Positions 47,137 to 60,527 of a DNA stretch of 64,000 bases are shown piece after piece. Made by a program: the position numbers and the translations under genes. The notes beneath the pieces were generated by a model that made no database searches, was not told the DNA's origin, and saw only the letters and a list, made by a program, of their open reading frames with translations. Origin of the DNA: Shewanella pealeana ATCC 700345 (GTDB lineage Bacteria; Pseudomonadota; Gammaproteobacteria; Enterobacterales; Shewanellaceae); contig NC_009901.1 of NCBI RefSeq assembly GCF_000018285.1, forward strand, positions 1,301,001 through 1,365,000, in the 5' to 3' direction. Numbering within the stretch: the stretch's first letter is position 1; each line of letters starts with the position of its first letter.

Positions 47137-48078
47137 ATGTTAGAACTTTTAGAACCAATCGCAATTTTTACCCATGTGGCTCGAGCGGGGAGTTTTAGCT
47201 CTGCAGCGAGAAAGTTAGGCATATCAAAGTCTAAAGTCAGTACCCAAGTGGCCGATCTGGAGCACAAGCTTGGCGTTCAATTGATTCAACGTACAACTAG
47301 AAGCTTGAGTTTAACCGAGGCGGGTCAGCTACTGTATACCCAAGGTGAAGAGTTATTAAGAGATGCCGACCAAGCTGTTGCTAGCGTTCATAATCTTAAT
47401 GATGCTACCCGAGGCGTATTGAAAGTTGGTATTTCTCAGTCTTTCGGCACCATGCATATCATTCCTGCTTTGCCAGAGTTTATGGCAAGGCATCCAGAAC
47501 TAGAGTTACAAGTTAGCCTGCTCGACCATAAAGTCGATGTGGTTAGCGAAGGTTTAGATCTGCTTCTTACTATGTCAGAGCAATTGCCCCTTGGCATGGT
47601 TGCCAGACCCTTGATGAAATGTCAGTTCTTGTTAGCCGCCTCTCCCTCATACGTTGCAAAACATGGCGTTCCTAGCCGCCCAGAGCAGCTGGTGGACCAT
47701 AATTGCTTGGTTTACCAAGGTGAGTGGCATGAGCATAGCGTATGGCAATTTAAACAGGGTGAAGACAACTGTGAAATTGGCGTAACAGGTAATTTCAGAG
47801 TCGATAATGCGCCAGCACTTAAGTCTGCTGCAGTTAGTGGTTTGGGTGTGGTTTATCTTGCCAGTTACCTGCTCGAAGATGAGCTTGAGAAGGGCACTTT
47901 AGTCCCTCTTCTTGAAGACTGGCAGTTGACTCATAATTTACCATTGCAGGCTGTTTACCCAAGACGTAAGCATTTAGCACCTAAGGTGAGCGCCTTTATC
48001 GATTTTATAAAGGATCATATCGGTACCCCGCCATATTGGGACGCCCCCTTAAAAGACTTGTATGCAAAGCGTAAGTAA
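47137..48078 (+). CDS. LysR-family regulator (CrgA-like)
   Basis: This 313-residue regulator has an N-terminal winged helix (VARAGSFSSAARKLGISKSKVSTQVADLE, about residues 15-43) and the co-inducer domain (VLKVGISQSFG, GLDLLLTMS, GLGVVYLASYL). The GSFSSAAR pattern and the length put it in the CrgA/AaeR-like branch. No divergent target gene is adjacent. It is followed by a 340-bp gap, so effector and targets cannot be inferred. Confidence 0.85.
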   Translation: MLELLEPIAIFTHVARAGSFSSAARKLGISKSKVSTQVADLEHKLGVQLIQRTTRSLSLTEAGQLLYTQGEELLRDADQAVASVHNLNDATRGVLKVGISQSFGTMHIIPALPEFMARHPELELQVSLLDHKVDVVSEGLDLLLTMSEQLPLGMVARPLMKCQFLLAASPSYVAKHGVPSRPEQLVDHNCLVYQGEWHEHSVWQFKQGEDNCEIGVTGNFRVDNAPALKSAAVSGLGVVYLASYLLEDELEKGTLVPLLEDWQLTHNLPLQAVYPRRKHLAPKVSAFIDFIKDHIGTPPYWDAPLKDLYAKRK

Positions 48079-48422
48079 ATGGGGAAACATTGTTCTGCAT
48101 TTGGGACGCTGTAAAGCTGAACGAGTGTTGGTACTTGTTACTCTTTGAAATTCAGTTACTTAAGCTCTGTAGCTAAATTGTTTAGCCAAGCTAGAGTTAG
48201 TTTTGGCTAAACAACTTTAAATCATTTCAGTTGCAGTTTGTTTTCATTTTAATACAATTGTAACCAGTTGATTCAAAAAGTTCTGAGTCCTATAGTGCAA
48301 TCGAGAATGACCCCTCTCAATTGTGCTATACAGAGCCGCTATATGCAGTTTTGTATCAATGCTGGTAGGCTTTAATAACTAAAACAATACCAGCCTTAAA
48401 ACCATCATCCTAGTTTGGTTTG
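48079..48422. other. intergenic, no supported gene
   Basis: AT-rich sequence between the LysR gene and a terminator hairpin. A short complementarity CAATCGAGA/TCTCAATTG occurs around 48298-48325. The hairpin downstream (48423) might end the LysR transcript or an unseen small RNA. Confidence 0.35.
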
Positions 48423-48448
48423 CCCCGGTTTCCAACCGGGGTATTTTT
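48423..48448 (+). terminator. terminator hairpin
   Basis: The stem CCCCGGTT/AACCGGGG (48423-48430 with 48434-48441), loop TCC, is followed by TATTTTT. It lies 345 bases after the LysR stop. Confidence 0.82.
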
Positions 48449-48787
48449 CTATCTACTCTCGATATACTCCCCAAATTTTAGTGGCATTCTCAATCGATAA
48501 TTCCTAGCTAATAGCTGAAAGAATAGTATTCCCTTGTGAAGCTGTTCAACGCAGAAGTAGGCAGCAAATACCGCTCCAGAATGACGAGTTTTAGCGGCTC
48601 TGATACTGCGACTCTTAAAGAACAAGAGGGAGCTTAACCTTAGTTCAATAATGCTCTTCACTCGTTGCAAGCAGTATGTCCCCGGCATGCTTGCAGACAT
48701 TTCCTCCATACTTGGAGGTTAGATGCAGCGAATGTTATTAATTCACGACTATATGGATATAGGAGGTACGAGACCAAGGATAATGGA
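48449..48787. other. unexplained flank of the IS110 element
   Basis: An 86-codon minus-strand frame (48449-48709) is open here but matches nothing I know, and its composition gives no strong support. The stretch includes a stem CCTCCA/TGGAGG near 48704-48719. It may be remnant or target sequence for the adjoining IS element. Confidence 0.3.
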
Positions 48788-48869
48788 ATGGACCCATCCA
48801 CTTTTAATCGGCCTCGCAATGGGCCACGATGTAGTTGCTTAAACTCATCAGAAAGAGGACGGGTCCACT

Positions 48870-49886
48870 ATGAACATTACTACAATTGGTCTTGATATCG
48901 CAAAGTCCGTTTTTCATTTTGTTGGCGTTAATAAAGCCGGAAAGCTTGTCAAAAAGAAGATAATTAAGCGCAAAGAGTTAGTGCTTTTTCTTGCTCAAAT
49001 AGAACCTTGCCTTGTTGTGATGGAAGCCTGTGGCGGTGCAAACTATTGGGCTAGGGAGTTCGAGAAAGTTGGCCATCAAGTTAAGTTAATAGCACCCCAG
49101 TATGTCGTTCCCTACAGACAAGGAAATAAGAATGACTATAACGATGCACTTGCGATAGCTGAAGCAGCACAACGCCCCAACATGCGCTTTGTAGAGCCTA
49201 AGCCAGTAGAGCAGCAAGATATTCAGATGCTGCATCGAATGAGAGAAAGACTAAACAAACAATCTACTGCACTGATAAATCAAGTGAGAGGTATGCTCGC
49301 TGAGTACGGCATTGTCATCACAAAAGGAAAAGCGTCTTTTAGGACAAAGCTACCAGATATTCTAGAAAATGCCGATAACGAATTAACAGTCAAAGGCCGA
49401 AGTGTTTTTTATCAACTATATGAAGAGTTTAATGACATTGAGAAGCGACTTAAAAACTGTGATGCCCAAGTTCAACAAGAGGTGAAAAGTAACCAAGTAT
49501 GCCAGCGCTTAGAAAGCGTACCAGGCATTGGCCCTGTGACTGCCACAGCATTTTATGCAGCTGTTGGGCAAGGTAAAGATTTTACCAATGGGAGACATTT
49601 TTCAGCATGGTGCGGTCTAGTACCCAAACAGCATAGTAGTGGCGGGAAAAATAATTTGCTTGGTATTAGTAAGCGAGGAAACGCTTATTTGAGAACGCTA
49701 TTTATCCACGGGGCAAGAACTGTCTTACAGCATAGTTCTAATAAAACTGACAGATTTAGTTGCTGGGCTAGCGCACTTGCAGAAAGGCGTGGCTTTAACA
49801 GAGCTTGTGTTGCCGTAGCTAATAAGCTTGCACGAATAGCGTGGGTTATAGCAGCAAGAGAAGATGAATACCGTATCACAGTATAA
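48870..49886 (+). CDS. IS110-family (IS1111) transposase/recombinase
   Basis: This 338-residue DEDD recombinase has the RuvC-like N-terminal domain: GLDIAKSVFHF (first Asp), VMEACGGANYW (Glu) and GNKNDYNDALAIAEA (Asp pair). The C-terminal transposase-20 domain has RLESVPGIGPVTATAFYAAV and FSAWCGLVPKQHSSGGKNNLLGISKRGNAYLR, containing the conserved Ser. It is full length without stops, so probably functional. GAGGAC upstream of the ATG may serve as ribosome site. Confidence 0.93.
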   Translation: MNITTIGLDIAKSVFHFVGVNKAGKLVKKKIIKRKELVLFLAQIEPCLVVMEACGGANYWAREFEKVGHQVKLIAPQYVVPYRQGNKNDYNDALAIAEAAQRPNMRFVEPKPVEQQDIQMLHRMRERLNKQSTALINQVRGMLAEYGIVITKGKASFRTKLPDILENADNELTVKGRSVFYQLYEEFNDIEKRLKNCDAQVQQEVKSNQVCQRLESVPGIGPVTATAFYAAVGQGKDFTNGRHFSAWCGLVPKQHSSGGKNNLLGISKRGNAYLRTLFIHGARTVLQHSSNKTDRFSCWASALAERRGFNRACVAVANKLARIAWVIAAREDEYRITV

Positions 49887-50148
49887 ATTAATCATTAACG
49901 CGTCAACTTAACGAGATAATCATAAGTTTTGCTAACCACCAAGTTGCCAAGATAATTGATTTGATGATGAGACAGTCAGACTGTTCTGCTTAAAACCTTG
50001 CTTCGCCACAGGCTCTAAAGAAGCCGTAAGGATGATAAGGAAAGTAGAAGCAAATATCCATCAGGGCCAGAGGAGTACCTCAATAACAGGCCGAATATAT
50101 GGGTGCAATGAACTCTTCTCAAAGTCGATATTAAATATCTTGCAAACC
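49887..50148 (+). ncRNA. candidate bridge RNA region of the IS110/IS1111 element
   Basis: IS110-family recombinases are guided by a bridge RNA encoded in the longer non-coding end of the element, which in the IS1111 subgroup is the right end. This 262-base right end has no reading frame and several short self-complementary stretches (for example GACAGTCAGACTGTC around 49972-49986). The exact RNA boundaries and guide loops cannot be set by eye. Confidence 0.4.
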
Positions 50149-50160
50149 GGATGGGTCCAT

Positions 50161-50539
50161 ATATGGTCGAAGGTAGAATAATGCAGGAGCGATTATCGAG
50201 AGTAATGCAGGAGTTGTTACTGAGGAGAAATTAATGACCTTGCCACATAAGCGCTAAACTCTCGCTGAGCGACCAAATCTTTATACTGATTGGTATTACT
50301 CATGACTTCCTGTTACAAATGCCATCAAACTAAGCGCAATAAAACGGATTACCAGCCTTTCTACTTAACTGTAGCGACTGACAGTGGCTCCCGTGATGAG
50401 TGAGCTTCGAACAATGCAGTTCGTTACCTTTGGGTATGCTCTAAATCAGCATTAAGTTGAGAGCTGAAAGGCCGTTGAATACCAGCCTTCTAAGAGTAAT
50501 ACCAGACTCTGAAATCATCGGATATAGAAGGATGGAACA
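50161..50539. other. intergenic between IS110 element and a small exported protein
   Basis: No supported gene. It contains AATGCAGGAG twice (about 50178-50187 and 50204-50213) and the dispersed 16-base repeat at 50283-50298. Confidence 0.4.
50283..50298 (+). repeat. dispersed short repeat ATACTGATTGGTATTA
   Basis: Exact copy of the 16 bases at 27165-27180 and reversed at 39241-39256. Confidence 0.6.
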
Positions 50540-50833
50540 ATGAATATTCTCAACAGAAAACAGTATGTACTATTGCTAGCCGTGTTAATTGTATCGACCA
50601 GTGGCCACTTATTTGCTAGAGGTGGAGGGCAAGGTTTTGGTGGTTACAATGCCATTAGCAAGGCCGAGCTTGAGGCTAGTTGGAATGGTCAGCGCGGCTC
50701 TCAACATACTGCTATCAGAGGTGTTAAGGTTCAGTGGTATGCTGATGTATGCGGTACAGCAAATGGTCATGTCACAGATGTAAAACTCTGTATAAATGAT
50801 AAGAAAAAAATGACTAAGGATGACAGCCATTGA
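50540..50833 (+). CDS. small exported protein of unknown function
   Basis: This 97-residue frame has a clear ribosome site (AGAAGGATGG before the ATG) and a signal peptide (KQYVLLLAVLIVSTSGHLFA). A Gly-rich start to the mature chain (RGGGQGFGGYN) and two cysteines near the C-terminus (ADVC and KLC, about residues 71 and 83) that could pair complete it. I recognise no family. A terminator follows, so it is a single-gene unit, next to the IS110 element in an accessory stretch. Confidence 0.7.
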   Translation: MNILNRKQYVLLLAVLIVSTSGHLFARGGGQGFGGYNAISKAELEASWNGQRGSQHTAIRGVKVQWYADVCGTANGHVTDVKLCINDKKKMTKDDSH

Positions 50834-50872
50834 TTCAATTTTTACTGTCAAAGCTATTTGTTATTTCTTAGT

Positions 50873-50902
50873 GCCAAGGTTTAAAGTCAATCTTGGCTTT
50901 TT
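50873..50902 (+). terminator. terminator of the small exported protein gene
   Basis: The stem GCCAAG/CTTGGC (50873-50878 with 50892-50897) is followed by five T. The stem is short. Confidence 0.65.
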
Positions 50903-51096
50903 AATCGCTATCGGTTATTCATACTCAACTTTCTAACACTCTTTGAGTATTCAAATCGGCAAGCTGAGCTACTGCTTGTTTTCAGGATAATGCCCTTGAA
51001 ATTAGAGTGTTAACCACCTTACACTCTGCATGAAACTGAACAGCCTATTCCATTCTCGCTTCGTAGCGCCATTTATTTTATGAGACGTGTATTACA

Positions 51097-53082
51097 TTGA
51101 ATAAATTTATTAAGTCACTTTTCTCCTCATCAGCTGATTCAGAAGCTGTTAGCTCAAGACAAGCTAGCCAAAATGAATACTCTTTTCAGCATCATCGTTT
51201 ATATTACGATGGATTGCTCCAGCTACAAGTAGTTAAACAAAATGGACTCCATGTTGAGCTGCACAGTCAGTTTGAACTGCTTGGCAGCCATAACTGCGAG
51301 CTCTTGCTGGCTGAGTGGCTTGATGATAAGCGCTTTATTGCTGTGGACTCTACAGGCCGAATTTTTAGTGCTGTATTTAATGCTGCCGACTCGCGCAAGG
51401 TTAGTCTGTCAGCTATCGCATCGTTAGAACTCTACCCGACAGAGAATGCTTGTATCAGCAATGATAAACTTTGGGTCGTTGGCGCTAAGTTAGGCGGGCG
51501 ACGCAGCGTGAAGTCATTATTCTGTGTCGATATTGCGTTAGCACATGAGCGAGCCATAAAGAGTCTGCAAAAGGTTAACTATTTTGAGCTCAATGCCGCA
51601 GACATCGCAGATTACCAAATGCCATTTAAGTTTGTTGATGGCAGCATGGTGTGTGTCGCAGACAATGAGTTTGTATTTTATCAGCGTGAAAAGCGCCGAA
51701 TGCATCAGCTAGTGAGCTTTAATCCTATGACTGCTGAGGTTAACGTGTACCCGCTTGAGGGCAAGCCTGCACCGACGGAGATCTCTTTTCGAAATACCTT
51801 CTTTATGGATAAAAAGCGCGGTATTGCATTACTTGCCAATACCGAGACGCTTAGTTTGTCTGGCAATAAAGCTGTTGCATTGACTAATGGGGAACCGAGC
51901 TTTAATTTTGAATTACAGTTTATCGATTTTAAACAGAAAAAAGCGCTATGGAGCCACATGGTGAGGGCGCTCAAGCCATCACAAATCTGCGCTAAATATC
52001 AGGCTGAGGAACTTGTTGAATCATTAAGTGCGATTGCTGCTGGCGATACCAGCTCAAGCCATCATGATGAGCTGCAAACTTTTATCGAGTGTCTAACATC
52101 GGCAAGTGTCTCGGCCGATGGCAATAGTATCTGGCTTGGTTGGCAAGATGGAGTGGTGCAGCAGCTGTCGTTAACCGGGGAGCGTATGTCGCCCGAGTTT
52201 AACCTGATGCAAGAAAACAGCAATGGTAAGCAGCGGTCTGTACAAATCTTTGGTCATGAGCCCGTTGTGATTAAAGCTCAAATTGATAAGCAATTGATAG
52301 TGGCCGCTGGTGAAAGCGAAGATGCACGTACTTGGAAGATGGAAATTGTAGATAAACAGGAGTATTTATCGACCACACAGTCTGACAATCATGACAAGGC
52401 CGGTAGCGAATGGCAGAGTCAGAGTCAGAGTCAGAACCAAAGCCACAAAGAAAACTCAGCTAACGGTGATGTTTCAGTCGTCTGTCAGCCGCTGGAGTGC
52501 AGCTTAGTTATTCCGGCTAGTTTAGCTGAAGTGCCGACATTGAGTGGGCAAGTCGATATTTGTCTTCAAGATGTCAATGATACTGAAGCAAAGGTTCGCT
52601 CGCTTGAAAAGCTCAATAGTCTTATGCCAACACTTAAGATTCATTACCATCAAAGTAACCAGGCATCGCTATTCTTTGGCTTTGTAAATCAGCAAGTCGA
52701 CGGCTGCGCCGTGCAGAGCGAATATGATGTGTTTGCCGCTGCAGCTTACGATGAAAAGGGCGCGGAGTTATTAGCGAGTATTATCGAGCAGTTTGCTAGT
52801 TGGAATAGCGCCGCGGATTTGACGGGCCTTAAAGGCGCGCCAATAATGGCCGATGCGGTGTTAGGTCTGGCTGATAAGCGCCAGTATTTGCATATTCTTG
52901 CTAAGTACTTTATTGCCATTGGTGGTCAAGAGCCGATCCATCCATTTCATGTCAACAGAACCATGATGGTGATCCGTGAGCAACATGCCGATACGCCTGA
53001 GCTAGCAGATTTTATGGCGAAAGTGCCATGGCCTTGGAATGATGTAAGTTTTACCGTACCTAATGTCGGTGATTATGACTAA
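51097..53082 (+). CDS. 661-residue protein of unknown function
   Basis: Long uninterrupted frame with normal codon use, so surely a gene. The start is apparently TTG at 51097 with only a weak ribosome site; there is no ATG in the first 170 codons. There is no signal peptide or membrane segment, so it is probably cytoplasmic. The first 400 residues contain repeated strand-rich blocks with D/N-G turns (for example VDSTGRIFSAVF, SADGNSIWLGWQDGVVQQLS), suggesting a beta-propeller-like fold. A Gln/Ser-rich linker (WQSQSQSQNQSHKEN) near residue 445 separates a C-terminal mixed domain. No function is proposed. Confidence 0.75.
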   Translation: MNKFIKSLFSSSADSEAVSSRQASQNEYSFQHHRLYYDGLLQLQVVKQNGLHVELHSQFELLGSHNCELLLAEWLDDKRFIAVDSTGRIFSAVFNAADSRKVSLSAIASLELYPTENACISNDKLWVVGAKLGGRRSVKSLFCVDIALAHERAIKSLQKVNYFELNAADIADYQMPFKFVDGSMVCVADNEFVFYQREKRRMHQLVSFNPMTAEVNVYPLEGKPAPTEISFRNTFFMDKKRGIALLANTETLSLSGNKAVALTNGEPSFNFELQFIDFKQKKALWSHMVRALKPSQICAKYQAEELVESLSAIAAGDTSSSHHDELQTFIECLTSASVSADGNSIWLGWQDGVVQQLSLTGERMSPEFNLMQENSNGKQRSVQIFGHEPVVIKAQIDKQLIVAAGESEDARTWKMEIVDKQEYLSTTQSDNHDKAGSEWQSQSQSQNQSHKENSANGDVSVVCQPLECSLVIPASLAEVPTLSGQVDICLQDVNDTEAKVRSLEKLNSLMPTLKIHYHQSNQASLFFGFVNQQVDGCAVQSEYDVFAAAAYDEKGAELLASIIEQFASWNSAADLTGLKGAPIMADAVLGLADKRQYLHILAKYFIAIGGQEPIHPFHVNRTMMVIREQHADTPELADFMAKVPWPWNDVSFTVPNVGDYD

Positions 53083-53168
53083 ATGCTAGCAGGGCTCTGG
53101 TATTGGGGGGTAGGAGCAAGGTCGTATGACCTCGCTCCTGTCTGTGGCGCTAGCGTAGCAAGGCGTGT

Positions 53169-54326
53169 CTAAAGCTGACCTTTCTTAGAAACAATATGGG
53201 ATGATGTGGTTGGATTTTTCATTATATGGCCGCCTTTCAAGCCTTTTATAGTACCAATTGCAGCAATAATCCAAGCGCAAATTAAGCCGGTAAATAACAT
53301 AATCGCTGCCCACTCAAAGGCGGGCAGCCCAGTATGTATTGCCAGCTGGCTTGTGCCGGTAACACAAGTGCCAACGGGGAAAGTAAACGCCCACCAAGTC
53401 AGTGCAAAGGGCATTTTCCTGCGCAGAGCACTTAATGTCAGTAAGCTTGCTAATATCGACCAGAAAAAAGCAAAACCCCAAATAGGCACGCCATAGAGAA
53501 TAGCCATGGTATTCATGCTTGTGGCGATCGGTTCGTCGACCACAAGCACTGCTACAGCCCCTAGGGTCCCCGCCGCGGTAATCGACTGACCTAAAGGCCC
53601 CAAGATTATCCATAGCGTGGGGACTCGTGCTCCTCCTGACGTCCCTGAGTGAACTAAGCGGCTCCATATCATGGTGATAATAATGAGGGCGCTCATTAAG
53701 CTAACGCCAAACATGGCATAGCAGGCGTAAAGCATTGTCTGCTGCATAGCGATAGTTGGCGCATGGGGAATTAACATGGCGCCAATGGCCGCAGAGACCA
53801 TAGGTGGGACGACGGGCATAAGCCAACCGCCGAAAGCTGCGTCACTGCGGATTTTATAATGGGTGAAAAGACGAAATGTGATAATCACGGCTGTTGCTAT
53901 CCCGCCAAGAGTACCAATAAACCACAGTGTCCAAGCTATGGTTATCGACGTCTCTGAGGCCATGATTTCTGGCCCGAACAAGATAGTTCCTCCTGCCACC
54001 GTAAGCATCGCCATTGGCGGCGCCCCGAAAAACTGTGCCATAACCGGATCATTAAATTGTCGCTTGATGATATGGGGCTTAAGAATCGTCTGAATAATCT
54101 TTATCAGTAACATGGCCAGAAGCATCAAGGCTGCGAGTAACCAAATAACAAACCCTATGCTGCTAAGGTCTTTACCGACTAGAGGTAAACCGACTGCTGC
54201 GTTAGCTATGATGCCTGTCCCCATCACTGAGGCAAACCAGTTTGGCCCTATCTCTGTACTTAGCTCTGGATTTGGCTCTGGATGATTTAGTTCTGTACTG
54301 GGCTCGACTTGAGTATTGTCAGACAT
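53169..54326 (-). CDS. TDT-family transporter (TehA/SLAC1-like)
   Basis: Membrane protein of 385 residues with about ten hydrophobic segments and the family start PNWFASVMGTGIIANAA near residues 29-45. The family covers tellurite-resistance TehA, malate permease Mae1, SLAC1 anion channels and sulfite exporters, so the substrate is an anion of uncertain kind. An unusual 25-residue Glu/Pro/Ser N-terminal tail (STELNHPEPNPELSTE) precedes the first helix. AAGGGG lies ahead of the ATG. The divergent LysR gene at 54486 is its likely regulator. Confidence 0.85.
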   Translation of the reverse strand: MSDNTQVEPSTELNHPEPNPELSTEIGPNWFASVMGTGIIANAAVGLPLVGKDLSSIGFVIWLLAALMLLAMLLIKIIQTILKPHIIKRQFNDPVMAQFFGAPPMAMLTVAGGTILFGPEIMASETSITIAWTLWFIGTLGGIATAVIITFRLFTHYKIRSDAAFGGWLMPVVPPMVSAAIGAMLIPHAPTIAMQQTMLYACYAMFGVSLMSALIIITMIWSRLVHSGTSGGARVPTLWIILGPLGQSITAAGTLGAVAVLVVDEPIATSMNTMAILYGVPIWGFAFFWSILASLLTLSALRRKMPFALTWWAFTFPVGTCVTGTSQLAIHTGLPAFEWAAIMLFTGLICAWIIAAIGTIKGLKGGHIMKNPTTSSHIVSKKGQL

Positions 54327-54485
54327 ATGTCCCCTTAACGGCTAAATTTTCAACTAACGTTACAACCTCAACTATTAAAACTATGTTGCTTGTGATGATA
54401 AGTACAATTTTGAATTGCTTGCTGCTAAACAAATTGAACTAACAAGATTTGCTAAGTGTCTATTTATACTTTTTGACTTGTTTAA

Positions 54486-55382
54486 ATGGGGGGGGCTTTG
54501 AATAGAAATATTTCTGATTTGAATCAAATCAGGTTGTTACTGGATTTAGTTCATACTAAAAACATGAGCCGCACCGCACAGCGCTTAGGTAAAACAACCA
54601 GTGCTATATCTAAAAACTTGCAGCGACTGCGTGAAGAGCTTTGCGACCCCCTCTTTATTAGGCAGCCATCAGGACTAGAGCCGACGACATACGCCTTAAC
54701 TCTTACCGCTAAACTGACTAATATTCAAAAGGATATCGATGCAGCCTTCGATTCTGAGTCATTCGATCCTAAGTTATTTAAAGGTAAAATCACCTTAGCT
54801 GCGAATACGGCGTTAATGCACCAATATCAGGGGGAACTATTACTCGCGTTAACAGAGCAGGCGCCGCTGGCCAATATTGAAATTGTCCAATGGCAAGAGG
54901 ATAGTTATCAGAGAATACTCGATGGCAGTATTAATGCAGGCCTACAATTTTTGAATGAGAATTGCACTCAATCTATTATGCAGCATGTTCTTCAAAGGCA
55001 TGAGATTGTGCTAGTCACTGGTGGCAAGCATAGTGCATCAAGCGCAAGAGAGGCCTTATCATCTCCCTTAGCAGTGCTTAAGATCCATGGTTGGAATGCT
55101 GACTCGGTTCGCTTTTCTCGCTACCTCTATCAGAAGGGGGTAGAGCATAATGTGCGTTTGCAGTGTGAAGATCTTCCTAGCCTATTATCATGCCTTGAGC
55201 GCAGTAATTTTGTCTCTCCGTTACCACGCTTCCTATGTCCAGGTAACTTAAAAGCGCTTACCTTAGATGAGCCGGGTAATGAGATAAGCTCAGTGGTGTG
55301 TATCCCCTCTACTCATAGAAACGAGCCACTGTATCAATGGCTCGTAGGACTCATTAAATCACTAATGCCAGTAAAGTTGTGA
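54486..55382 (+). CDS. LysR-family regulator, divergent to the TDT transporter
   Basis: This 298-residue LysR-type regulator has its helix-turn-helix at about residues 24-50 (NMSRTAQRLGKTTSAISKNLQRL) and the co-inducer domain after residue 90. The ATG at 54486 lacks a ribosome site and is followed by a run of eight G. A TTG at 54498, just after that run, is an alternative start. The 159-bp divergent gap to the TDT gene is the classic LysR arrangement. The gene ends convergently against the small CydA-associated frame. Confidence 0.83.
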   Translation: MGGALNRNISDLNQIRLLLDLVHTKNMSRTAQRLGKTTSAISKNLQRLREELCDPLFIRQPSGLEPTTYALTLTAKLTNIQKDIDAAFDSESFDPKLFKGKITLAANTALMHQYQGELLLALTEQAPLANIEIVQWQEDSYQRILDGSINAGLQFLNENCTQSIMQHVLQRHEIVLVTGGKHSASSAREALSSPLAVLKIHGWNADSVRFSRYLYQKGVEHNVRLQCEDLPSLLSCLERSNFVSPLPRFLCPGNLKALTLDEPGNEISSVVCIPSTHRNEPLYQWLVGLIKSLMPVKL

Positions 55383-55398
55383 ATATAGACAAGATAGC

Positions 55399-55470
55399 CT
55401 ATTGCTTAACGAGTTTATTGGCGATAAACGCCGCTGCGATAGCGACAAAAATGACAGAGAAATAGATCAT
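55399..55470 (-). CDS. 23-residue membrane peptide overlapping the cydA-like gene
   Basis: The frame MIYFSVIFVAIAAAFIANKLVKQ (23 residues) begins at 55470 within the last codons of the cydA-like gene. Its ATG and the upstream TGA share ATGA, with GGAG five bases before the start. It would be a single membrane helix with a positive C-terminus. Small single-helix proteins (CydX, CydY, CbdX types) accompany cytochrome bd subunits, and the position and coupling here fit such a role. The sequence does not resemble E. coli CydX, and with no CydB present its partner would be the CydA-like protein itself. Confidence 0.6.
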   Translation of the reverse strand: MIYFSVIFVAIAAAFIANKLVKQ

Positions 55471-57125
55471 AGTGACTCCGGTTTTATGTTTGTTAATGTA
55501 GCTGTTGTTGATGCTGTTTTAGCAGGCTCTGCTTCTAAAGCGTCGGTCTGGATAGCACCAGCCTGTAAACAGACTTTCTCGACTGAAATAGCAGGCTTAG
55601 GGCCTTGTTTTATCCAGCGAGCCAATATGACTCCCAAGATCAGAAATAGGGCGGCGTAGCTCATGAGTAAGGTCGGTAGCTGAAACCCATTGGTTTGCCC
55701 TGTTGCAAACGAACCCGCACCCTGTAATGTTGGCATCACGCCATAAATCACCCAAGGTTGACGGCCATACTCAGAAAGAAGCCAGCCGGATAAATAAGCG
55801 ATAAAAGGAATGGGCAGGGCATAGGTGCTGAGCTTGAGTAGTCTAGTGCTAACGCTGTTAACTCTGCCTTTGATGGCTAGGTAAATCCAGTAACTACTGA
55901 GTAGCAAAATGAATATGCCTGCGCCGACCATCACACGGAAACTAAAAAATAGCAGGCAAACATTGTTGACCGTGTCGTTAGCCGCTAGGCGGATCTGCTC
56001 TTCGGTTACCTCGATTAGATCCGGATTGTATTTTCGAACTAGCTCGGCATAGCCAAGATCTTGCTGGTGGGCTTGTATAAGCTCTCTTTTAGCCTGTTTG
56101 TTTGATGAAGATGAGTAAGCTGCGATGGCCTGATGGGCTAATAAGCCGTTGCGAATACGCTGCATATTTTCAGCTCTTAACTGCTTGATGCCCTTCACCG
56201 GCTGAGTGTCATCGGTTCCAGATAGCATCCAGCCAAGCACTTTAGGGATCTTAACTTCGAATCTATTCTCCTCTGCTTGCTGATCCGGTAGTGCAAATAA
56301 CACCAGATCGGCACCATCTTGCTGCGTCTTCCATAAGGCTTCGAGTTGCGCCAATTTCATCGGTTGCGCCTGATGAACGTCACGGCCGTGAATGTCTCCG
56401 CTAAATATGGCAAACAGTGAGAAACATAAGCCGATACTGGCTCCTATCACTACCCCCGTTTGGGCAAAGGCTTGTTGTCTATTTTTTTGTAGGTAATAGC
56501 AGGACAAAGAGATAAGAGTCACGCCACCGATTAAGAATGCACCAGTAAACATATGGGCAAAGCGTGTACTTGCCATAGGTGTGCTGACAATTTCAAGTAG
56601 CGAACTTGCTTGGTATGTCATGGTGTTGATATCAAATTGCATTGCTGAGCTTGGATCATGCATCCAGCCATTGAGTACGATGACTGGTAGCTCGGTATAG
56701 GCACAGATAAAGGGTAATAACCAAGTGATGAAAAGGTGAACCTTGGCGGGAAGATATCGCCAACCGACATAGAACAGGCTCACCGCGGTAAGCCAGAGCA
56801 TCATACCAGTAGACACTATGGTGCCAAGCAGTCCGACATATTCACTGAATACGCTGTTGATAAATATGTCGAGTTGTTGCCAGTCTTCCGGCATGGGAGG
56901 AGTTAATATACCAGTGATAATTAATACAAACACAATAGGCAAACACAGCTTGCCAATAAATTGCGCTGCCGATTTATATTCAGCATTTGATTTGGTGACG
57001 TATAAGGTTTCAAAAATTGCAGTGACTAGCATAAGGCCAATAAACAGAGGCACAAAAATTTGGTGCACCATCATACTGAGTGCAAATTCGAGTCTGGCGC
57101 TATCGGTTAAAGCGTGTTCAATCAT
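55467..57125 (-). CDS. orphan cytochrome bd subunit I (CydA)-like protein
   Basis: Membrane protein of 552 residues homologous to CydA along its length. Conserved relative to E. coli: His21 (His19), His191 (His186), Arg397 and Met399 (Arg391, Met393) for heme b558, the quinol-loop pair Lys257 and Glu262 (Lys252, Glu257), and GRQPW at 454-458. Not conserved by my alignment: Glu99 and Glu107 (here hydrophobic, in a helix about five residues shorter) and Glu445, the heme b595 ligand (no acidic residue in the last helix). No cydB follows. A heme b558 quinol site may remain without a normal oxygen-reducing di-heme site. GGTAAG precedes the ATG. Confidence 0.85.
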   Translation of the reverse strand: MIEHALTDSARLEFALSMMVHQIFVPLFIGLMLVTAIFETLYVTKSNAEYKSAAQFIGKLCLPIVFVLIITGILTPPMPEDWQQLDIFINSVFSEYVGLLGTIVSTGMMLWLTAVSLFYVGWRYLPAKVHLFITWLLPFICAYTELPVIVLNGWMHDPSSAMQFDINTMTYQASSLLEIVSTPMASTRFAHMFTGAFLIGGVTLISLSCYYLQKNRQQAFAQTGVVIGASIGLCFSLFAIFSGDIHGRDVHQAQPMKLAQLEALWKTQQDGADLVLFALPDQQAEENRFEVKIPKVLGWMLSGTDDTQPVKGIKQLRAENMQRIRNGLLAHQAIAAYSSSSNKQAKRELIQAHQQDLGYAELVRKYNPDLIEVTEEQIRLAANDTVNNVCLLFFSFRVMVGAGIFILLLSSYWIYLAIKGRVNSVSTRLLKLSTYALPIPFIAYLSGWLLSEYGRQPWVIYGVMPTLQGAGSFATGQTNGFQLPTLLMSYAALFLILGVILARWIKQGPKPAISVEKVCLQAGAIQTDALEAEPAKTASTTATLTNIKPESL

Positions 57126-57282
57126 TAGTACTTACCTATCCATATAGTTAGGCAGACCATAACAGGATTGATTTTCCTATAAGTTGAATCTGTTTTTCCT
57201 GAAACGATATTTAGTCAGGGAAATGGTTCTGAAGTTAGTTGACTTTGTTAGCGCAGCCGCTAGGTATAAAATTGTGGATGGA

Positions 57283-57316
57283 ACAATAAAAAATCGGTCA
57301 CATCTAGTGACCGATT
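57283..57316 (-). terminator. terminator of the DUF885 gene
   Basis: The 10-bp stem AATCGGTCAC/GTGACCGATT is followed on the minus strand by a T run. It is 36 bases past the stop. Confidence 0.85.
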
Positions 57317-57351
57317 CGTTGGTTTCATTGAGATCTTCTAATCAGATTCGT

Positions 57352-59235
57352 TTAGCTGTTTTGCTCAATCCACAGGTCGATTTCACTTTCTAGTACATCT
57401 AATGGTACGGGGCCATTTTTGAGTACGATAGTGTGAAAATCACGAATATCAAACTTATCGCCTAGCGCTTGCTGCGCCTTATCTCTAAGCGCCAATAGCT
57501 TAAGCATGCCCACCTTGTAGGCAGTGGCTTGTGATGGCATCACGATATGACGTTCAACCATCTTGATAGCGTCAGATTTAGCATTGGGCGTATTAGTGAC
57601 GTAGTACTCGATGGACTCTTCACGAGTCCATTTCTTAGCATGAATACCTGTATCGACTACTAAGCGGCATGCGCGCCAAAGCTCCATGGCTAAGCGGCCA
57701 AAGTCAGAGTAGGGATCTGAATACATGCCCATCTCCTTCGGGAAGTACTCGCTGTATAGACCCCAGCCCTCAATATATGCAGTGTAACCGCCGAACTTAC
57801 GAAACTTAGGTACAGCCTCCAGCTCTTGAGCGATTGCTATCTGCATATGATGCCCCGGCGTGCCTTCATGGTAAGCCAGAGCTTCCATCTGATACTTTGG
57901 CATCGCCTTCATATCATACAGGTTAGCGTAGTAAGTGCCTGGACGGCTGCCATCGGGTGATGGGTTGCTATAAAACGCCTTACCGGCAGACTTCTCTCTA
58001 AAGGCTTCGACCTGTTTTACGATCATTGGTGCCTTAGGTTTGACCTTGAACACTTCGTCTAAGCGACCGCTCATGGTGTCGATAAGTGCGGTGGCTTCAC
58101 TTAAGTAGGCTTGGCGACCCTTATCGTCATTGGCATAGTAAAACTGCTCGTCATCACGCATGAACTTAAAGAACTCAGCGAGTGAGCCTTCGAAGTTAAC
58201 CTTGTTCATGATGTCACGCATCTCGCTGTGAATACGCGCCACTTCCGATAAGCCAAGTTCATGGATTTCACTGGCGCTCATATCGGTTGTTGTCGTGCGT
58301 GCGAGTGCGTTGTTGTAATACGAGTCACCTTGAGGGAATTTCCAGGCGCCATCGCGGGTATCGGCTTTAGTTTCAAGCTTGGTCATATAGGCGATGAGCT
58401 TGTCGTAGGCAGGTTTTACATCTGTTACTAATGCGCTTTTAGCCTCACGTAATAAGCTTTCCTTGTCGCTATCGCTGATTTCAAGTTTTGCCATTTTACG
58501 CTTAAAGTCGGCCCAAAGAGCGCTGTCTTTTACTCTTTCATTAGTCGCCGAATTTGCTGTAAATGGTGCGCCTGCAACTATGTTCTTGCTGTCGTTGATC
58601 ACGTAAGGAAAGACAAACTTAGGTGCGATAATGCCTTTGCTTTCACGCACTTCTAATGCAGTTTGTAGCTGAGATAAACGTTTAGGCACGCCTTGCAAGC
58701 GGCTTATATAGGCCTTGGCATCTTCGACATTACCAATTTGGTGCTGGTTTATCAGAAACGAAGCTATTTGCGAGTGGCCGCCATACATCTGGTTAACGGG
58801 GTAGCTATGGTAACGCCATTTATCGTCTTTAATGGCTTGCTGAAGCTTTTGCGTTAGTAGTTGGTAGCTAAGTAGAGTTTGTCTATCGAGCTTGCTTGAG
58901 TTGATTTTTTGAAGCTGAGCTAAATGTTTTTTGTCGCGGGCAAGGGCGGCATCATCGGCAGTATCGCCCATCTCATCCCATTTATCGTAATCGGTTTTAA
59001 TGCCGAGATGGGTTTGGGAGATGGGGCTTGCCATGACATTTTCCATGAAAATGCTTTCGAATAAGGCGTTGGCTTTTTCTGACTCACTCTCTGCCTTATG
59101 GGCAACGGGCTCACTTGGGCTAGATAGTGAAGTGGAAGTTGGGGCGGCGACGGCGGAGGCGCCAAGCATAGTGCTGGCGCTGAGCCCAAATGAGAGCGAG
59201 AGGGCAATAAGGCTAACTTTTGTTTTTATAGGCAT
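57352..59235 (-). CDS. DUF885 family exported metallopeptidase
   Basis: Exported protein of 627 residues. A signal peptide runs to about SAVAA (residues 1-30). The DUF885 domain follows, with the zinc-binding motif YHEGTPGHH near residue 452 and TAYIEGWGLYSEYFPKEMG downstream holding the third ligand Glu. This pattern is shared with the M2/M32-like carboxypeptidases, so a peptidase acting in the periplasm is likely, though substrates are not known. Monocistronic; its promoter lies in the 155-bp gap after hemW's 3' end. Confidence 0.85.
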   Translation of the reverse strand: MPIKTKVSLIALSLSFGLSASTMLGASAVAAPTSTSLSSPSEPVAHKAESESEKANALFESIFMENVMASPISQTHLGIKTDYDKWDEMGDTADDAALARDKKHLAQLQKINSSKLDRQTLLSYQLLTQKLQQAIKDDKWRYHSYPVNQMYGGHSQIASFLINQHQIGNVEDAKAYISRLQGVPKRLSQLQTALEVRESKGIIAPKFVFPYVINDSKNIVAGAPFTANSATNERVKDSALWADFKRKMAKLEISDSDKESLLREAKSALVTDVKPAYDKLIAYMTKLETKADTRDGAWKFPQGDSYYNNALARTTTTDMSASEIHELGLSEVARIHSEMRDIMNKVNFEGSLAEFFKFMRDDEQFYYANDDKGRQAYLSEATALIDTMSGRLDEVFKVKPKAPMIVKQVEAFREKSAGKAFYSNPSPDGSRPGTYYANLYDMKAMPKYQMEALAYHEGTPGHHMQIAIAQELEAVPKFRKFGGYTAYIEGWGLYSEYFPKEMGMYSDPYSDFGRLAMELWRACRLVVDTGIHAKKWTREESIEYYVTNTPNAKSDAIKMVERHIVMPSQATAYKVGMLKLLALRDKAQQALGDKFDIRDFHTIVLKNGPVPLDVLESEIDLWIEQNS

Positions 59236-59390
59236 TTTTAGGCTTCCTTAGAATTATGATTGTTATCCTAAAGAAGCCAGCGGTTAATTTTTTGATCTAA
59301 GTGTTAGCAAATATTTCCAAATCTATAGGCTGTGGCTTATTAATTAAGCTATTCAGTTGCTTAGGGAGTATTAGTAAGCCGTTATACCAT

Positions 59391-60527
59391 CTATAGGAAT
59401 TGTGACAGTAGCTCATTGACGAACATGTGACCTTTGCTAGTCAGCTGCCAGTGTTCATCCGATTCAGTCATTAAGCCCTTAGCACAGCCTTGCTTAACTC
59501 CGTCACTGATGGTGTCTCGAGTTAAACCTGTGCGCTGTTCAAATTCCACCTTAGGAATTGGACTCATTAGGCGCAAGCGGTTCATCAGATATTCTAAGGC
59601 TCTGTCTTCCTCTACCACCTCTGTTGTTTCATCGGTGTAGTTATCAGCGGCTAAATAACCTTTAGGGTGCTTAATCTTGACGGTGCGGACAATTTTATTG
59701 TCATCAAGTAGGGTTATTTTACCATGAGCGCCACAACCAATCCCTAAGTAGTCGCCAAACTGCCAGTAGTTAAGGTTGTGTCTGCATTGGAAGCCTTCTT
59801 TGGCATAGGCCGAGATCTCGTACTGCTGGTAACCTAGCGCAGCTAGACGCTTTTGCCCCTGCTCGTAGATCTGCCATAGGTTTTCATCATCAGGAAGCTG
59901 TGGCGGCTTAGAGTGGAATAGGGTATTAGGCTCAATCGTTAGTTGATACCAAGACAGGTGGGGCGGAGCAAGCTCTGCTGCGGTCTCTATGTCGCTAAGG
60001 GCTTCATCAAAACTTTGGTTTGGCAGGCCGTGCATCAAGTCTAAGTTAAAGCTCTGGTAACCAGAGACTTTAGCCTTTTGGGCGGCAATATGAGCTTCGT
60101 CTTTATTGTGAATACGCCCGAGCAGGTTGAGCTTGTCGCTAGAGAAACTCTGTACCCCGATTGATAGTCGGGTCACGCCAGCTTTGCAATAAGCTTCGAA
60201 ATCATCGTGCTCAAGGGTGCCAGGATTAGCCTCCATGGTAATTTCGATATTGTCGCTAAACGGAACTAGCTTATCGACTTCAGCTAATAAGCGCCCAATC
60301 TGCGCGGCATCGAACAGAGAGGGCGTGCCGCCACCGATAAAAATCGTGTCTAAACGTCTACCTTGCACGTAATGCAGATCTTGCTTGAGATCTTTTATCA
60401 GTGCATCGATATATTCAGTTTGCGGCAGTTCACCATGCTGTCCATGGGAATTGAAGTCGCAGTAAGGGCACTTTTGTACGCACCAAGGAATATGGATATA
60501 TAGGCTTAACGGTGGCAGGGTTAACAT
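59391..60527 (-). CDS. hemW: radical SAM heme chaperone HemW
   Basis: Radical SAM protein of 378 residues. The cluster cysteines are Cys16, Cys20 and Cys23 in IHIPWCVQKCPYCDF, followed by GGGTPSLF and TMEANPGTLE. The C-terminal HemN-like winged helix ends the chain. HemW binds heme and is proposed to deliver it to respiratory proteins; it is often misannotated as coproporphyrinogen oxidase, whose extra N-terminal part is lacking here. The ATG overlaps the rdgB stop by one base, the usual rdgB-hemW coupling. Confidence 0.93.
   Translation of the reverse strand: MLTLPPLSLYIHIPWCVQKCPYCDFNSHGQHGELPQTEYIDALIKDLKQDLHYVQGRRLDTIFIGGGTPSLFDAAQIGRLLAEVDKLVPFSDNIEITMEANPGTLEHDDFEAYCKAGVTRLSIGVQSFSSDKLNLLGRIHNKDEAHIAAQKAKVSGYQSFNLDLMHGLPNQSFDEALSDIETAAELAPPHLSWYQLTIEPNTLFHSKPPQLPDDENLWQIYEQGQKRLAALGYQQYEISAYAKEGFQCRHNLNYWQFGDYLGIGCGAHGKITLLDDNKIVRTVKIKHPKGYLAADNYTDETTEVVEEDRALEYLMNRLRLMSPIPKVEFEQRTGLTRDTISDGVKQGCAKGLMTESDEHWQLTSKGHMFVNELLSQFL

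Follow-up and report, generated by a model that had tools for sequence, protein, structure and literature searches.

An orphan CydA-like protein of Shewanella pealeana with conserved haem-ligand positions, a changed distal pocket and no CydB of its own

The window analyzed here is a 64,000-nucleotide stretch of the Shewanella pealeana ATCC 700345 genome (contig NC_009901.1, positions 1,301,001 to 1,365,000). On its reverse strand, positions 55467..57125 encode a CydA-like protein of 552 amino acids, hereafter the orphan, in which the residues after about 515 form a low-confidence tail. Residues 10–509 match PF01654 with 298.7 bits against a curated cut-off of 26.2, which places the orphan in the superfamily, and the protein has the CydA fold. 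In a structure comparison, the chains found below those of CydA are the membrane chains of alternative complex III and polysulfide reductase, a similarity that we read as a shared helix arrangement and nothing more. Next on the same strand (55399..55470) comes a small ORF, 23 codons and a stop in length, with one predicted membrane helix; its ATG overlaps the orphan stop codon (ATGA). The resulting operon lies tail to tail with a forward-strand gene for a LysR-type regulator (54486..55382; PF00126, 54 bits, and PF03466, 42.6 bits, both over cut-off), from which a reverse-strand gene for a SLAC1/TDT family transporter diverges (53169..54326; PF03595, 252.8 bits). A conserved 41-bp element in the upstream region, 34 bp from the orphan start (57160..57200, reverse strand), is a candidate LysR operator. 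Positions 48000–60000 of the window contain no RNA element at Rfam gathering scores. The locus is a small conserved operon-like unit, not a lone gene.

These genes belong to a block of 9,273 bp (48079..57351) that is absent from non-carriers. The block consists of an IS110 family transposase gene (48870–49886), a 97-aa ORF, a 661-aa ORF (51097–53082), the transporter and LysR genes, the small ORF, and the orphan. Four of the eight listed non-carrier Shewanella genomes were compared (L131–L134), and in each the genes flanking the block are neighbors, 592–855 bp apart. The transposase gene is missing from the loci of the other three Shewanella carriers; the 661-residue protein, which has no Pfam or NCBIfam match, is encoded near the orphan in all four. 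Both a gain in one lineage and losses in others could explain this history. The transporter gene lies near the orphan in 4/4 Shewanella loci and 0/4 Vibrionaceae loci; as a neighbor in Shewanella carriers only, it is a candidate, not an established, member of the system. The four Vibrionaceae loci (L100–L103) each contain one or two sulfatase-type genes, assigned by similarity clustering with PF00884 tested on three genes, and the Vibrio loci also encode a radical-SAM sulfatase maturase (tested on one) and a DUF4345 protein near the orphan. Because sulfatase genes were not found in the Shewanella loci, we claim no link between sulfatases and the orphan.

CydA normally works with CydB in cytochrome bd. 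The sequence-only reading had noticed no cydB on either side of the orphan and proposed a search for cydB or a canonical cydAB elsewhere in the genome, which is a single contig of 5,174,581 bases (5.17 Mb). The absence at the locus held up, and the whole-genome search located one normal cydABX operon elsewhere, whose cydB, adjoining the normal cydA, is the sole PF02322 gene of the host. All eight carrier genomes have as many CydB genes as normal CydA genes (one of each per genome, two of each in G237), leaving the orphan as the surplus CydA-type gene. A dedicated CydB encoded elsewhere was rejected for all eight on these counts. None of the orphan loci (L005 and L097–L103, with L005 denoting the same locus as L102) contains CydB. 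As a control, 27 CydA-type loci were picked from 80, one of which (L005) proved to be a family member; CydB was found in 24 of the remaining 26, the exceptions being L008 and L021. A cytochrome bd subunit I is expected to have CydB encoded with it, and the orphan does not.

Twelve clusters, the orphan's among them, form a discrete clade. A profile of these clusters, scored against the 7,997 candidates that had the most words in common, gave 717–931 bits for members and 436 bits for the next protein. In a quick tree of 119 of the 122 sequences (those shorter than 440 aa were dropped), the family forms one side of a branch with an SH-aLRT of 100 and a length of 1.63 changes per column; since the branches are long, we do not claim a place for the family among other CydA groups. 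One member, P0007, encoded on a contig of 2.2 kb, lacks its first residues and may be cut. Members occur in 4/129 Shewanella genomes (923–930 bits, with other CydA hits there at 421 bits or less) and 4/329 Vibrionaceae genomes. The sample of the order contained two carriers among 394 genomes (the host and one of the Vibrionaceae), and that of the class one among 369 (the host alone). Named carriers are S. halifaxensis, Vibrio satsumensis, Photobacterium sanguinicancri, an Oceanospirillaceae MAG, and V. splendidus MOR1. A close plasmid copy was sought and rejected: all 658 plasmid records with any match fall below 60% identity, and the ten listed are ordinary CydA at ~34%. The six clade members that bear a protein name are all labeled oxidase subunit I in databases, a label that is likely misleading. 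No CydB-less CydA of this kind is described in the literature titles and abstract openings that we consulted, from which we do not claim absence from print, and the available portion of PMC2824531 contains nothing on the orphan gene.

Residues were mapped by aligning E. coli CydA with the host's own CydA and 120 listed database hits in MAFFT. The haem-holding residues of E. coli bd-II are His186 and Met393 for b558, Glu445 for b595, and His19 for haem d; Trp441 has been discussed for electron transfer (PMC8585947). The orphan keeps all five positions, as His191, Met399, Glu452, His21, and Trp448, respectively. It also retains Asp244, Lys257 (E. coli 252), and Glu262 (257) of the Q-loop, together with Arg397 (391) and Arg455 (448). 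Across the family, the equivalents of both b558 ligands are kept in 12/12 members, and so are those of His19 and Glu445. The sequence-only reading had listed the counterparts of His19, His186, Lys252, Glu257, Arg391, Met393, and the GRQPW motif as present, and the alignment agrees. It had also reported Glu445 missing, and here it erred: this residue is the glutamate of EYGRQPW, present in the orphan as Glu452 within SEYGRQPW (codon at 55770..55772, reverse strand), and the position is Glu in 12/12 family rows and 110/110 other rows. The view that the b558 site is kept and the b595/d site lost is an oversimplification: the distal Glu99 and Glu107 are gone, yet His19 and Glu445 have an equivalent in every member.

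Several lost residues belong to the distal side of the haem pocket. In E. coli CydA, Glu99 lies 4.8 Å from the haem d iron, with Ile144 and Phe104 roofing the cavity (PMC6853902), and Glu107 is the proposed primary or last proton donor (PMC13189123). As read from the sequence alone, both glutamates are lost in the orphan, which has Ile103 and Trp111 in their place; they are kept in 0/12 family members versus 107 and 108 of the 110 other rows, the rest being gaps. The helix that carries them had been judged about five residues shorter, which the spacing from Trp to Asn contradicts: Trp81 to Asn148 spans 67 steps in E. coli, Trp82 to Asn152 spans 70 in the orphan, and the range over the 12 members is 67 to 70. 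None of the 12 keeps the equivalent of Ser140 or of Ile144, and one (P0007) keeps that of Phe104. With the ligand equivalents in place and Glu99, Glu107, Ser140, and Ile144 gone, the family retains the residues that hold the haems and loses the distal side that handles oxygen and protons.

A new acidic residue appears next to the altered pocket. Glu145 (codon at 56691..56693, reverse strand), at E. coli position 141, is present in 12/12 family rows and 0/110 others, which have Ala, Ser, Gly, or Thr (107 rows), Leu (one), or a gap (two). Both in E. coli and throughout the family, the position lies seven residues ahead of the invariant Asn148 (E. coli numbering), so that its column is not a matter of alignment choice; it is three residues ahead of the cavity-roof residue Ile144. 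Glu145 may face the haem. The sequence-only reading held that an alternative ligand at the b595 position in a structure-based alignment would refute it; Glu145 is a candidate for such a ligand by sequence. Since the equivalents of His19 and Glu445 are kept and the following helix carries a new invariant glutamate close to the former oxygen pocket, further haems may bind besides b558. One enzyme that these features could suit is a scavenging reductase that, with quinol electrons and Glu145 at the rebuilt distal pocket, would reduce peroxide, nitric oxide, or another small molecule. Both extra haem ligands and the new acid three residues from the former roof Ile144 would serve it, and a patchy, regulated accessory gene is what one would expect of it; as far as annotated, however, no stress genes adjoin the orphan in any of the eight loci, and we regard this alternative as improbable.

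The family has 23 newly near-invariant positions and has lost 21 that are near-invariant in other CydAs. Counted within segment borders set in this analysis, the conserved positions kept are 5/8 in helix 1, 2/11 in helix 2 and its loop, 0/10 in helix 3, 5/13 in helix 4, 2/2 in helix 5, 8/9 in helix 6 and the start of the Q-loop, 3/4 in the rest of the Q-loop, 6/6 in helix 7, 9/10 in helix 8, and 1/2 in helix 9. Ala97 and Leu101 of E. coli helix 3 face CydB and line a channel shared with it (PMC6853902). This pattern bears on whether the orphan is an alternative subunit I, one that would pair with the single normal CydB in a second, modified bd oxidase switched in under LysR control. A normal cydB is at hand in 8/8 carriers, and the equivalents of His19, His186, Met393, Glu445, and Trp441, all kept, would fit an oxidase. 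However, of the 21 conserved positions in helices 2 and 3, the site of the CydB-facing and proton-path residues named in PMC6853902, 19 are lost, and Glu107, the last proton donor proposed in PMC13189123, is gone in 12/12 members. We therefore consider a borrowed CydB unlikely.

The quinol site is conserved in part. PMC13189123 places Tyr243 and Arg298 among the quinone contacts at the long Q-loop of E. coli CydA; in the family, the first is Arg or Lys and the second Gly, Asp, or Ser, each in 12/12 members. The earlier statement that the quinol site is kept fails at these two contacts, whose change makes quinol use by the orphan uncertain. The changes at Tyr243 and Arg298, Glu145, the small ORF, the adjoining LysR gene, and the 41-bp element are all absent from the sequence-only reading; the last three are new here.

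The 23-codon ORF is found in 4/4 Shewanella loci, and its predicted peptide starts MIYFSVIFVAIAAA. In Vibrio, an ORF of 29 codons (MIWYIAFY...) begins 9 bases behind the orphan in 3/3 loci; none was found in the Photobacterium locus, so that a small ORF is present at 7/8 loci. Copies differ chiefly in the third base of their codons (3, 1, and 10 differences at the first, second, and third positions between the window and L097; 5, 2, and 15 between L100 and L102). In its setting, the ORF resembles CydX: it would encode a short one-helix peptide right behind a CydA-type gene, with an aromatic residue near the start. It differs in length (23–29 aa versus 38 aa for the host CydX), in the lack of an intervening cydB, and in its failure to match the CydX profile (PF08173), which the small ORFs of the window and three relatives, as very short queries, do not hit at E up to 10, while the host's normal CydX scores 62.8 bits in the same test. 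An assignment as CydX was rejected on this basis; matches to FeoB_C and PsaM were weak, fell below cut-off, and were taken as chance, and NCBIfam gave no match. In E. coli, CydX lies against helices 1, 5, and 6 of CydA, and a bond links its Trp2 to Asp239 of the Q-loop (PMC13189123), a residue whose equivalent is kept in 12/12 family members. By analogy, the predicted peptide may play a CydX-like role.

Orthologous LysR genes, forming one cluster, directly adjoin the orphan in 8/8 loci; the two genes are in tandem in Vibrio and lie tail to tail in the Shewanella and Photobacterium loci. Other neighbors vary between the genera. The window's LysR is 40–90% identical to those of other carriers (six of the seven others aligned). 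LysR matches of at least 500 bits are confined to carriers, in 4/129 Shewanella genomes, counting G116, where LysR is in two pieces, and 4/329 Vibrionaceae genomes; five further Vibrionaceae genomes have weaker relatives at 176–191 bits. In G116, a draft genome, an apparent frameshift splits LysR into two overlapping ORFs (L098:10848-11733; 303 and 201 bits), which could be an error or a real loss.

No T-N11-A palindrome with at least 5/6 symmetric pairs occurs in the upstream region of the window, and the element was therefore sought by alignment. The 41 bp of the window are identical at 30 positions to a Vibrio stretch upstream of the DUF4345–orphan operon, compared with at most 24 in 30 dinucleotide shuffles. 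The upstream regions of Shewanella L097 and Photobacterium share 20/24 positions (at most 18 in shuffles). These two comparisons hold. A 20-bp match between the window and Photobacterium (16/20) is reached by 2/40 simple shuffles, the 24 bp of L097 do not exceed shuffles against Vibrio L100 and L101 (4/30 reach the score each time), and neither do the Vibrio regions against Photobacterium (24 and 21 of 30). Within three mismatches, the element pattern has exactly one site per genome in 7/8 carriers; as it was drawn from those seven sites, it matches there exactly by construction, and the finding is that no other genomic site exists. The pattern is absent from the Photobacterium carrier and, read backwards, was never found. 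The transporter/LysR promoter was considered as a second target and rejected, its best match covering 14/26 fixed positions. LysR presumably binds the 41-bp element. This arrangement would also fit a membrane sensor of haem or of the quinone redox state that signals to the adjoining LysR, and haem sensing had been raised as a possible role: the two genes adjoin and co-occur, and seven of the eight carriers have a single candidate operator. The orphan, however, has no cytoplasmic signaling domain, and no such signal is required for self-regulation. The usual way for a LysR protein to sense small ligands is through a domain of its own, and this one has PF03466. A sensor is, in our estimate, a distinctly poor candidate.

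Among Shewanella copies, the dN/dS of the orphan is 0.08–0.12, and among Vibrio copies 0.03–0.05, with dS of 0.37–1.18 placing some pairs near saturation. In the same four Shewanella genomes, cydB has a dN/dS of 0.02–0.03, several times lower. This excess, the broken LysR frame in G116, and the patchy presence are what a decaying, functionless CydA duplicate would leave behind. Set against these, the ratios lie far below 1, no stop codon interrupts any of the eight copies, the ligands are invariant, the LysR gene and the upstream element are common to different genera, and G116 is one draft genome; decay is thus a very remote prospect. The orphan is under purifying selection and functional, yet less constrained than cydB.

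Taken together, the retained haem-binding residues and the lost oxygen- and proton-handling residues suggest that the orphan likely oxidizes quinol for a purpose other than respiratory oxygen reduction. We give about an even chance (roughly 0.5) to a CydB-independent, quinol-oxidizing cytochrome b with a rebuilt oxygen pocket and without bd-type reduction of O2 to water. A quinol-oxidizing cytochrome b that is no normal oxygen reductase had been proposed from the sequence alone, which fits the loss of Glu99, Glu107, Ser140, and Ile144 and the lack of CydB. Several points tell against this reading: Tyr243 and Arg298 are changed, the kept His19 and Glu445 would suit a variant oxidase too, the orphan has a higher dN/dS than cydB, the small ORF has no CydX match, and neither it nor the element pattern was found in Photobacterium. 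In the quinol-oxidizing cytochrome, b558 would receive electrons from quinol and hand them on to a second haem. Glu145 would stand in on the distal side for the lost glutamates of helix 3, either binding haem or donating protons; the small peptide would dock in the manner of CydX; and the operon would be controlled by LysR acting at the 41-bp element. The electrons might then go to a small molecule or another acceptor in place of a four-electron reduction of oxygen, a step that is a guess. More tentatively, the clade could represent a new branch of the bd superfamily, in which a CydA-type chain with its own one-helix peptide and no CydB has traded the helix-3 glutamates for one on helix 4, yielding a LysR-controlled quinol dehydrogenase with another acceptor.

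The closest known systems are E. coli CydA (bd-I; 6rko, 6rx4) and AppC (bd-II; 7ose), PF01654 proteins of the long Q-loop type. Compared with them, the orphan has no CydB, carries changes at Glu99, Glu107, Ser140, Ile144, Tyr243, and Arg298 and a Glu at 141, has rewritten helices 2–3, and comes with its own LysR gene and upstream element. Archaeal CydAA', a bd-superfamily pair of CydA-type genes described by Murali et al. in 2021, reportedly works without CydB, a feature shared with the orphan; it is defined by two adjacent CydA-type genes, whereas each of the eight orphan loci has one. A conserved CydA clade with the haem residues but neither CydB nor the distal acids offers a natural experiment that could reveal what residues allow a bd oxidase to reduce oxygen and whether a CydA chain can work alone or as a homodimer, both questions being testable with one small operon.

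Two other CydA-type genes also lie in loci where CydB gave no match. In Methylibium rhizosphaerae C1-9, a second, distinct CydB-less CydA-like ORF (L008:5968-7512, in a 10.7 kb locus) has likewise lost Glu107, here replaced by Leu. Unlike the orphan, it keeps Glu99 and has no Glu at 141, and it has Arg for His126, Gln for Ser140, and other neighbors; Glu445 is kept. The CydA of an alphaproteobacterial MAG (L021, a 9.8 kb locus) has Glu99, Glu107, and Glu445 all present.
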